A stretch of DNA of 64,000 nucleotides from Kluyveromyces lactis (Eukaryota > Ascomycota > Saccharomycetes > Saccharomycetales > Saccharomycetaceae). Made by a program: the position numbers and the translations under genes. Shown piece by piece: positions 2,445 to 60,120 of the stretch. The stretch's first letter is position 1. The number at the start of each line of letters is the position of its first letter. A model generated the notes under the pieces. It was given only the letters and a program-made list of their open reading frames with translations, had not been told where the DNA came from and ran no database searches. Location: assembly GCF_000002515.2 (NCBI RefSeq), contig NC_006037.1, forward strand, positions 930,001-994,000. The letters run 5' to 3'.

Positions 2445-2543
2445 TCTCCCGGGGGCGAGTCGAACGCCCGATCTCCAGATTACAAATTGCTTTGTGTTTT
2501 CAAATTACAGTCTGGCGCCTTAAACCAACTTGGCTACCGAGAG
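2445..2543 (-). tRNA. tY(GUA): tRNA-Tyr (GTA anticodon) with a 24-nt intron
   Basis: The minus strand gives an acceptor stem CTCTCGG pairing with CCGGGAG, a D arm, an anticodon stem CCAGA/TCTGG with anticodon GTA (plus-strand 2507-2509), and a T arm with GTTCGACTC. The mature parts match the yeast tRNA-Tyr pattern. An intron of 24 nt (2482-2505) begins one base after the anticodon, the standard place for nuclear tRNA introns, so splicing by the tRNA endonuclease is expected. The intron is longer than the S. cerevisiae tRNA-Tyr intron as I remember it (14 nt). Confidence 0.96.
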
Positions 2544-23156: not shown

Positions 23157-23192
23157 ATTCCATGTCACGTGCGTTGGCACGTGACATGGAAT
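23157..23192. promoter_or_regulatory. Perfect 16-bp-arm palindrome with paired Cbf1-type CACGTG sites
   Basis: The arm ATTCCATGTCACGTGC (23157-23172) is followed by a 4-nt spacer and its exact reverse complement (23177-23192). Each arm contains GTCACGTG, the Cbf1 consensus, which also suits Tye7 or Pho4-type bHLH factors. It sits about 605 bp upstream of PGK1. Confidence 0.8.
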
Positions 23193-32591: not shown

Positions 32592-32614
32592 GGGCGGACC
32601 ACAGTGGTCCGCCC
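32592..32614. promoter_or_regulatory. Perfect palindrome containing a Gal4/Lac9-type site
   Basis: Arms GGGCGGACCAC and GTGGTCCGCCC flank a single A (11-bp arms). Inside is CGG-ACCAC-A-GTGGT-CCG (32595-32611), fitting the CGG(N5)(A/T)(N5)CCG site of Gal4 and its K. lactis ortholog Lac9. Confidence 0.75.
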
Positions 32615-57997: not shown

Positions 57998-58912
57998 CTA
58001 AGCCAAAACGTACAAGGCAATGATCACGGCAGCGGAGTTAGCGATCAAGGGTAGGTGGCCCAGTTGGAATTTCCAACAGAACAAACCCACGTTATAACCA
58101 TGGGATAACAATTGGCAAATGGAATAATCCGAGGATAACAGCAATTCGATCTCTTTCTTGACGCTAGGGGAGTTGTACAAAAATTGTAAAGAGATCAACA
58201 CTTTTGTCAAATGGTAAACCAATGGATCAAATTCTATAGCGAACAACTCATGACGGACAAAATTGAAATAGTATGAGACGATGGATGGAATCATACGGGA
58301 GAAAATGAACCAGAAAGAGACGGAAAGAATGAAATCCCTTTGACTTGGATAGAAAGTGACGAAATCTGGAGATGGGAAACGGTACCAGTTGAATTGGATC
58401 AAAGATTTAACGAAAACGAACAATTCCACAGCCAATACCAACTGTTTCACAGTGTGCAAAGTAGACAAATAATCCTGTACGGTTTCGTTCCATTCCTGAG
58501 TGGTCCATTGGACGTCATCGACAAATTCATGGAATCTGAAGTAGTAAGGACTGTTTGTGACCTTGTTGACGAATCTCAAATTTGAAAACCACAGACAAGC
58601 TGGGGATTTCGTTGGCAAATCAGAACGATCAAACATTTCCTTAATATCTTGTTCATCCTCCTCTTCCTCATCATCTAGAGACGATTCCTCCTCCTCACTA
58701 TCTTCTTCATCATTATCTTCTGCTAGCGCTTCGTAGTATAGCTGTAACTCTGGATATTCGTTCAAATCGACAGGTTCATCCAGGGATTCCAAATGATCCA
58801 AGATCTTTAGAACCAATGTTGGTTTCGTATTGCTTGTACTAACGGACAAACCAAGTTTATCAGCCAAATCGATCAATTCGACCTTCTTGAATTTTTCCAA
58901 AACGGTGGACAT
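57998..58912 (-). CDS. GTT3: Gtt3-like protein with SAP domain and membrane segments
   Basis: The protein has 304 residues from the ATG at 58912. A SAP-type helix-extension-helix lies at 1-45 (LEKFKKVELIDLADKLGLSV). A very acidic stretch follows (about 65-95, DNDEEDSEEEESS). The C-terminal half has hydrophobic segments (QLVLAVELFVFVKSLIQF, ILSVSFWFIFSRMIP, and the terminal LIANSAAVIIALYVLA), suggesting an integral protein of the nuclear envelope or ER. S. cerevisiae Gtt3 (YEL017W, 337 residues) is nuclear-peripheral with a suggested role in glutathione metabolism, and its neighbours NPP2, PMP2 and EAF5 agree. The molecular function is unknown. Confidence 0.82.
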   Translation of the reverse strand: MSTVLEKFKKVELIDLADKLGLSVSTSNTKPTLVLKILDHLESLDEPVDLNEYPELQLYYEALAEDNDEEDSEEEESSLDDEEEEDEQDIKEMFDRSDLPTKSPACLWFSNLRFVNKVTNSPYYFRFHEFVDDVQWTTQEWNETVQDYLSTLHTVKQLVLAVELFVFVKSLIQFNWYRFPSPDFVTFYPSQRDFILSVSFWFIFSRMIPSIVSYYFNFVRHELFAIEFDPLVYHLTKVLISLQFLYNSPSVKKEIELLLSSDYSICQLLSHGYNVGLFCWKFQLGHLPLIANSAAVIIALYVLA

Positions 58913-59061
58913 ATTGAGCCTTGGGGGGGGATGAGGTGAGTTGGCTATTACCAATATTCAGATAGATAGTTTGTGTATTCACATATACATACAAGTGGTG
59001 CAAGAATATAACATTTGATCCAACGTCTACACAAAAAAAAAAAAAATACTAATAATAATAA

Positions 59062-59090
59062 AAACAACAACAACAACAACAACAACAACG
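59062..59090. repeat. (AAC)n microsatellite
   Basis: About nine AAC triplets between the GTT3 start and the hairpin cluster, read directly. Confidence 0.9.
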
Positions 59091-59361
59091 ACCTGAAAAA
59101 GGACAAAACGACAATATAGTTAAAGGCTATCTATCCTGAGCAGCGGATCCTTCATATCATCAAATGTGACAGAACCAACACATATACTTTTTGTATATAC
59201 AGAGACTGTGTATTTTATAGATGTATATGTAGACGAAGAAAAAAAAGGTAAATATTGGAATTCGGGGTAGACAATGCGCAGAAAAGGGAGCCACCGAGGG
59301 ATACCGAATGGGGAAATATGTAAACACACGGTGCATGGAAGTGCACTTTGTGGATACAAAC

Positions 59362-59402
59362 GTGATTACCCGGAGAGACCCGAGGTCTCTCCGGGTAATC
59401 AC
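59362..59402. repeat. Hairpin A: perfect 19-bp inverted repeat with Reb1-type cores
   Basis: The arm GTGATTACCCGGAGAGACC (59362-59380), a 3-nt spacer, and the exact reverse complement (59384-59402). Each arm carries a TTACCCGG Reb1-type core. Confidence 0.9.
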
Positions 59403-59415
59403 TTATTCCAAAAAC

Positions 59416-59450
59416 ACAGAGGGTAATGCCCGAAGGGCGTTACCCTCTGT
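59416..59450. repeat. Hairpin B: 16-bp inverted repeat
   Basis: Left arm ACAGAGGGTAATGCCC (59416-59431), 3-nt spacer GAA, right arm 59435-59450. One mismatch, which would be a G-U pair in RNA. Confidence 0.9.
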
Positions 59451-59468
59451 TGTGGATACGTGCGTGGA

Positions 59469-59493
59469 TTTAGTGTGCTGCCCACACACTAAA
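59469..59493. repeat. Hairpin C: 9-bp inverted repeat
   Basis: TTTAGTGTG (59469-59477) and CACACTAAA (59485-59493) are separated by 7 nt. Confidence 0.8.
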
Positions 59494-59496
59494 CCC

Positions 59497-59528
59497 ATGT
59501 GTCTCCGCTCTACTGAGCCGAGACACAT
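59497..59528. repeat. Hairpin D: 14-position inverted repeat
   Basis: ATGTGTCTC pairs with GAGACACAT, then one C-C mismatch, then GCTC/GAGC around a TACT loop. Confidence 0.85.
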
Positions 59529-59557
59529 CGAAAAGGAAAAACCTCCCACTGATTGTT

Positions 59558-59586
59558 CCCATACGTTACCCAGGGTAACGCATGGG
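59558..59586. repeat. Hairpin E: 14-bp inverted repeat
   Basis: CCCATACGTTACCC and GGGTAACGCATGGG flank a single A. One mismatch. The core CGTTACCC/GGGTAACG recalls arms of A and B. Confidence 0.85.
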
Positions 59587-59828
59587 ATAAATACCGCACG
59601 CACCGCACGACAGTGGCCAGTACAAACGTCATATCTGTTTCCCACACCACGAGAAATCTCGTTGAGGCATTTTTTTCGTTCAAACTTCCTACCGTTTCCC
59701 AGTTCCAAAGGGGAAAAGGGAATGGACTGGAAATAGGAAATGGGATTTAAGCTATGATAGCGTTACCCTGACCTTTTAAATGGCTCCTGAGGGAAATTTA
59801 AAAAATTTGAAAACTGATTACGGCCAAC

Positions 59829-59836
59829 TATATAAG
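59829..59836 (+). promoter_or_regulatory. TATA box of the PMP1-type gene
   Basis: TATATAAG about 170 bp upstream of the ATG at 60001. The leader is CA-rich (ACACACACAA) just before the start. Confidence 0.65.
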
Positions 59837-60000
59837 GGACAGGAAGTTTTCATTGGATTTTCCCTCTCGAAGAAATTGTACACTGATATGATAATTTATA
59901 TTGGATATATAGGTTTTTCTTGTTTTATAAAGTTTCCTTTCACCACGCACTCACGCACTCGCGCACTAACACAACTCTTTTTTTAAGAACACACACACAA

Positions 60001-60120
60001 ATGTTGCCAGCTGGTGTTATTTTGGTCTTCGTCTTGGTTGGTTTGGCCGCTGTTGCCGTTATCGGTACTATTACTTACAAGCATGTGCAAGCCAAGAAGA
60101 GAGGTTTGCAAAAGTTCTAA
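60001..60120 (+). CDS. PMP1: Pmp1/Pmp2-type proteolipid of the plasma-membrane H+-ATPase
   Basis: A 39-residue protein beginning MLPAGVILVFVLVGLAAVAV and ending in a basic tail HVQAKKRGLQKF. It has one membrane segment (about 3-25). It aligns over its whole length with S. cerevisiae Pmp1 (LPGGVILVFILVGLACIAI..., QRGLQRF), a proteolipid that binds Pma1 and phosphatidylserine and stimulates the proton pump. Codons are strongly biased, so expression is high. S. cerevisiae has the duplicates PMP1 (YCR024C-A) and PMP2 (YEL017C-A). This single gene is their shared ancestor type. The in-frame extension upstream starts only at a weak alternative ATG in the leader and is not conserved. Start is set by the conserved LPxGVILVF block. 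Confidence 0.95.
   Translation: MLPAGVILVFVLVGLAAVAVIGTITYKHVQAKKRGLQKF

Follow-up and report, generated by a model that had tools for sequence, protein, structure and literature searches.

The question raised by this locus is how five near-perfect inverted repeats came to stand one after another in a promoter of the dairy yeast Kluyveromyces lactis. They lie on a K. lactis chromosome, in a window (the whole 64,000-nucleotide stretch of DNA analysed here) that is part of a 1,062,590-base contig, and they occupy positions 59362-59587 of that window as hairpins A to E, each with a short spacer and zero or one mismatch. The features on which the argument depends are these:

57998..58912, minus strand: GTT3-like gene, left flank, 304 aa, named from protein relatives
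58913..60000, no strand: divergent intergenic region holding the array, from the GTT3-like gene to the PMP1/PMP2 gene
59308..59736, plus strand: open frame across the array, 142 aa, no Pfam match
59362..59402, no strand: hairpin A, arms of 19 bp, spacer of 3 nt, free of mismatches
59416..59450, no strand: hairpin B, arms of 16 bp, spacer of 3 nt, one T:G mismatch
59465..59497, no strand: hairpin C, arms of 13 bp, spacer of 7 nt, one A:C mismatch
59497..59528, no strand: hairpin D, arms of 14 bp, spacer of 4 nt, one C:C mismatch
59557..59587, no strand: hairpin E, arms of 15 bp, spacer of 1 nt, one A:C mismatch
60001..60120, plus strand: PMP1/PMP2 proteolipid gene, right flank, 39 aa, Pfam PF08114 (PMP1_2), E 9.2e-18

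Relatives of the GTT3-like protein were found in K. dobzhanskii (78%) and K. marxianus (74%, named Glutathione transferase 3 in the source), and the PMP1_2 match on the other side was obtained with the frame 60001-60117. EAF5 (PDB match 5y81_H, E 1.5e-18) lies in the neighbourhood, MMS21 and a nucleotide pyrophosphatase-type gene are also near the array, and we take this gene content to be that of S. cerevisiae YEL016C-YEL019C. A TATA-like sequence at 59828 lies 241 bp beyond the end of the array, which is therefore probably outside the PMP mRNA. The 142-aa frame that crosses it is probably not a gene: no Pfam family matches, and the sole protein match is an identical sequence that begins at a later ATG. 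This version, predicted at 133 aa, belongs to a cluster with 3 members that is spread over 33 contigs, the longest of 25,125 bases, which suggests that the array is present in other assemblies too, and the frame itself is probably an accident of GC-rich DNA (GC 0.52 over 59362-59586 versus 0.36 in sampled non-ORF DNA).

The initial annotation had described five consecutive hairpins upstream of a PMP1-type gene, and all five are where it placed them; the start of the array at 59362 also stands, and its end belongs at 59587 instead of 59586. The arms of A to E differ in sequence from one another, and TTACCC/GGGTAA is, as had been noticed, common to A, B and E. True Reb1-type cores were correctly assigned to A, which carries two full copies of TTACCCGG (taken as the Reb1 consensus, and presumed to apply here) in a convergent, that is inverted, pair. 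A is alone among the five in this, TTACCC in B and E being without the following G. Hairpin B has the everted order GGGTAA..TTACCC, E has a convergent TTACCC/GGGTAA at its tip, and the sequences of C and D, which share base 59497, hold neither TTACCC nor CACGTG; in C the inner 9 bp are perfect (59469-59493). Twelve-mers from the arms of B to E have no other occurrence in the DNA examined, one or two from the arms of A recur elsewhere around its TTACCCGG, and a search of the whole genome (10,729,447 bases, 7 contigs) found no second copy of the array region. Hairpins A and B are bracketed by a direct repeat of 17 nt, imperfect but with 10 nt exact (59348-59364 and 59450-59466); it could mark a local duplication and is too weak to build on.

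That such a density is beyond chance had been proposed together with a shuffled-sequence simulation, set beforehand as its refutation, and the simulation did not reproduce the observed density. When the array was dinucleotide-shuffled 2,000 times, 1,982 shuffles were free of hairpins, 18 had one and none had two, against five observed, and when the whole intergenic region was shuffled (n=500) the corresponding counts were 481 with none and 19 with one, again against five. With hairpins scored as paired positions minus 3 per mismatch, and with 15 hairpins of score at least 9 per 78,190 bp of non-ORF DNA elsewhere as background, the Poisson probability of at least five hairpins in 225 bp is 1.2e-9 per single position, which argues that this promoter was either a hot spot for their formation or a place where the products were kept. 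The array also folds far better than its shuffles, with z -15.54 as RNA and z -14.05 as DNA, and 0/200 shuffles were as good in either case.

The GTT3-PMP promoter is not unique within the K. lactis genome in having such hairpins. We sampled 24 stretches of 10 kb, of which contigs C1 and C2 supplied 20 and C3-C6 one apiece. An ORF mask of 150 aa or more divided them into 78,190 non-ORF and 161,810 coding bases; under this mask small genes count as non-ORF, and some false ORFs may count as coding. The largest spacer considered in the scans was 10 or 12 nt. A low-complexity filter removed simple-sequence hairpins before the sample counts and before the 22-hairpin set described below were made, and was absent from the scan of the window, from the array shuffles and from the scan of stretch L024. 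In non-ORF DNA the numbers at scores of at least 9, 10, 11, 12, 14 and 16 were 15, 10, 5, 5, 4 and 3, where the means of 100 shuffles were 4.81, 1.29, 0.34, 0.09, 0.01 and 0. Coding DNA had a smaller excess, with 17 hairpins at scores of at least 9 (8.15 shuffled), 7 at at least 10 (1.95 shuffled) and 0 at at least 14 (0 shuffled), and the first 20 stretches taken with the window gave a similar picture. The longest hairpin in the sample is a 24-bp perfect palindrome without a spacer, with two CACGTG sites, between divergent ORFs (L005:3811-3858). Four of the five sampled hairpins of score at least 12 lie upstream of at least one ORF and the fifth lies between convergent ORFs, so that long hairpins are not strictly a promoter feature. 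Nor is clustering unique to the array, given stretch L024, a locus chosen for its motif pairs, where two hairpins stand 22 bp apart. The array is the densest spot seen of a wider hairpin pattern in K. lactis.

What the wider pattern has to do with binding sites can be judged from motif pairs. We take TTACCC to be Reb1-like and CACGTG to be Cbf1-like, their use by K. lactis Reb1 and Cbf1 being presumed from the consensus. Convergent TTACCC..GGGTAA pairs number 43, or 41 in nuclear DNA after two on C7 (40,291 bases, taken as mitochondrial) were left out; in 8/41 the arms reach 13-23 bp, a mismatch being present in one, and in 33/41 they stay under 13 bp. Sixteen of these stretches were picked first, mostly for paired arms, and the remaining pairs followed. 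Among 58 TCACGTG..CACGTGA pairs, of which 50 were listed, the flanks were examined for the first 22 in list order, and in five of those 22 the arms measure 16-24 bp, with a mismatch in one case. At least four inner paired positions were present in 9/41 TTACCC pairs, a figure partly inflated by the GGA commonly found after TTACCC, since this can pair through the motif itself, versus 2/27 backward-read control pairs, one of which is itself a TTACCC hairpin. For other factors the searches, with one pattern each, gave 0 Abf1-like and 0 Rap1-like inverted pairs, and the two Gcn4-like pairs, one with 9-bp arms, are too few to use. TTACCC, GGGTAA or CACGTG occurs in 1.2% of 16-base windows (1,193/96,520, the window included), and among the five sampled hairpins of score at least 12 CACGTG is present in two (in one of them in a single arm only) and TTACCC in none. 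A composite protein-binding array had been among the candidates of the initial annotation, and that idea survives in part: A does have two Reb1-type cores and TTACCC and CACGTG pairs are often found in such hairpins. The motifs, however, measure 6-8 bp and the arms 13-24 bp. Paired binding sites alone are therefore insufficient, because the arms run into sequence without motif. Moreover, bound Reb1 or Cbf1 is not required, since three hairpins of the motif-blind sample (L081, L012 and L005:1854), like C and D, carry neither motif. The first of these three (L081:5560-5598) is a 17-bp perfect hairpin with a 5-nt spacer between convergent ORFs.

Orientation adds a further regularity. Strict TTACCCG pairs are convergent in 21 cases and everted in five, and direct pairs number 13 at gaps up to 31, or eight at gaps up to 22, the range of the convergent set. 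The seven strict pairs with arms of at least 13 bp and a full core in both arms are all convergent (7/21), turning on the GG side, and the everted strict pairs have at most two inner pairs in 5/5 (judged from the inner sequence, with outer flanks for 1/5). Everted order with long arms does occur for the looser TTACCC, in hairpin B and in L057, L058 and L059, the three everted stretches having been chosen on purpose only where arms looked long. The direction bias therefore concerns the full core only, and the numbers are small.

From the anatomy of the hairpins and from published rad27 mutants we infer, with moderate confidence, that the five hairpins are scars of template switching, clustered in one promoter. 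A nascent strand would stall while the promoter was copied, perhaps where lagging-strand synthesis met a bound protein; it would fold back or switch strand, copy a dozen or more nucleotides in reverse, and return to its own template. The product would be an inverted repeat whose near-perfect arms are separated by a very short spacer, and one binding site would have become an inverted pair. At the GTT3-PMP promoter this would have happened about five times. Hairpin A, because it is perfect, may be the youngest or recently re-corrected, whereas B to E carry one mismatch each. It seems that Reb1-like and Cbf1-like sites either favour such copying or give its products a value for which they are kept. 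A template-switching footprint had been one of the candidates first listed, and it is favoured by near-perfect arms of unrelated sequence, by very short spacers, by the non-ORF excess elsewhere and by the lack of any repeat family in our searches or of an excess of flanking duplication. Spacers of 0-2 nt, found in 10/22 hairpins of score at least 12 (14 of the 22 from stretches picked for a motif pair), leave too little room for a simple single-strand loop; they fit a switch to the opposite strand better, and either that or later trimming would have to be assumed. Part of the pattern could also come from selection for paired sites.

Several known systems come close to this account. The available part of a study of S. 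cerevisiae rad27-delta reports quasi-palindrome correction and palindrome expansion, in which perfect short-spacer inverted repeats arise by fold-back, at 21 loci, among them a repeat whose 16-bp arms are 1 bp apart (PMC5677150); the process would be the same here, but those are new mutations in a repair mutant, whereas the K. lactis hairpins belong to a standing reference sequence, are clustered and lie partly on Reb1-like and Cbf1-like sites. The same source of perfect stems is proposed for template-switch RNA hairpins in what was available of PMC8794818, where the stems are RNA structures, whereas the K. lactis array shows no indication of an RNA function. Short inverted repeats are likewise genome-wide in S. 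cerevisiae, where their enrichment is near poly(A) sites and immediately downstream of start codons according to the accessible text of PMC6420913; in K. lactis, by contrast, one of the five long hairpins sampled lies between convergent ORFs, the others are upstream of an ORF, and 2/5 are on CACGTG. As to the barrier, Okazaki termini collect at Abf1, Reb1 and Rap1 sites, and in vitro work cited in the same paper found that Reb1 impedes Pol delta (PMC8496332, available in part), which would put stalls at Reb1-like sites; these barriers were mapped in S. cerevisiae by Okazaki ends, and that part of the paper draws no link to hairpin mutations. The Reb1 of S. pombe is a polar fork barrier, but that of S. 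cerevisiae is reported to be no significant obstacle at telomeres (PMC5368702). Joining the fold-back and Reb1-barrier literature into one K. lactis account would be our own step. In the open-licence literature, at the level of titles and abstract starts, we found no report of such hairpins in Kluyveromyces promoters, and the consulted portions of PMC8604942 and PMC13155455 yielded nothing on Kluyveromyces.

Two other readings keep binding sites at the centre. It is possible, if doubtful, that inverted sites came first, by selection or chance, and that these paired sites were homogenised later as a quasi-palindrome seed was extended by template switching. Quasi-palindrome correction makes up 10/21 template-switch loci in rad27-delta yeast (PMC5677150, as far as available), and many convergent TTACCC pairs, 33/41, are without extended arms; yet hairpins without a motif would need another seed, and the everted strict pairs have no more than two inner pairs in any of the five (outer flanks seen for one). 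We think it unlikely that the array is a selected DNA element, in which inverted Reb1-like or other pairs, or extruded cruciforms, would keep the region clear of nucleosomes and insulate the divergent genes. Its position in the divergent GTT3-PMP promoter, the two full cores of A and the order of strict TTACCCG pairs, convergent (21) above direct (13, or 8 at gaps up to 22) above everted (5), would all suit this, as would an observation from S. cerevisiae, where nucleosome occupancy is near 0 at one class of inverted repeats in 3'-UTRs whose units measure at least 9 bp (PMC6420913, from the accessible text). The array adds TTACCC sites in mid-promoter and may exclude nucleosomes, and any effect on transcription would be of the same conjectural kind. 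But the arms run well beyond any motif, C and D lack both TTACCC and CACGTG, and selection would account for the keeping of such arms, not for the making of perfect arms of unrelated sequence.

The remaining readings fare worse. Transcription of the array as a non-coding RNA or long leader with functional stems, also a candidate of the initial annotation, is made improbable by the arm mismatches and by the location before the TATA-like sequence. The RNA fold (z -15.54) speaks for it, but the DNA fold gives a similar z (-14.05), and no single strand reads all four arm mismatches as wobble, since that of B wobbles on the plus strand, those of C and E on the minus strand and that of D on neither. 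No Rfam family lies over the array at gathering scores, and it ends 241 bp before the TATA-like sequence. Neither ARAGORN nor Rfam found a tRNA or RNA family over the array; elsewhere in the window Rfam matched a 99-nt tRNA at 2445-2543, minus strand, which ARAGORN did not report and which perhaps bears an intron. Insertion of a small mobile hairpin element is hardly credible. Five hairpins in succession and the imperfect 17-nt direct repeat (59348, 59450) around A and B might be expected of one, yet the arm sequences differ, the genome held no further copy of the region in a search that could miss very short copies, and words common to the two 30-nt flanks were not longer than between unrelated flanks at 24 hairpins (permutation p 0.82). 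We therefore set this candidate aside as unlikely, with neither dispersed copies nor flanking target duplication found, very short copies being able to escape.

Returning to template switching, a bolder version can be put forward only tentatively: that DNA-bound Reb1 and Cbf1 are hot spots of inverted duplication in K. lactis, Reb1 with a direction, so that single sites keep becoming inverted pairs, promoter architecture arises by replication error and the GTT3-PMP array is an extreme case. If this were right, bound transcription factors would also shape DNA, by causing fold-back copying, and mutation could give rise to paired binding sites and perfect hairpins even where structure was not under selection. 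Fold-back duplication could then be counted, dated and tested in K. lactis as a natural genome, and a perfect palindrome in a promoter should be interpreted as a functional structure only with caution. Two further hairpins of the window deserve mention. A perfect 16-bp hairpin with inverted CACGTG sites lies at 23157-23192, in another divergent intergenic region, and a perfect 11-bp palindrome with a 1-nt spacer (GGGCGGACCAC), intergenic and with neither the Reb1 nor the Cbf1 motif, lies at 32592-32614.
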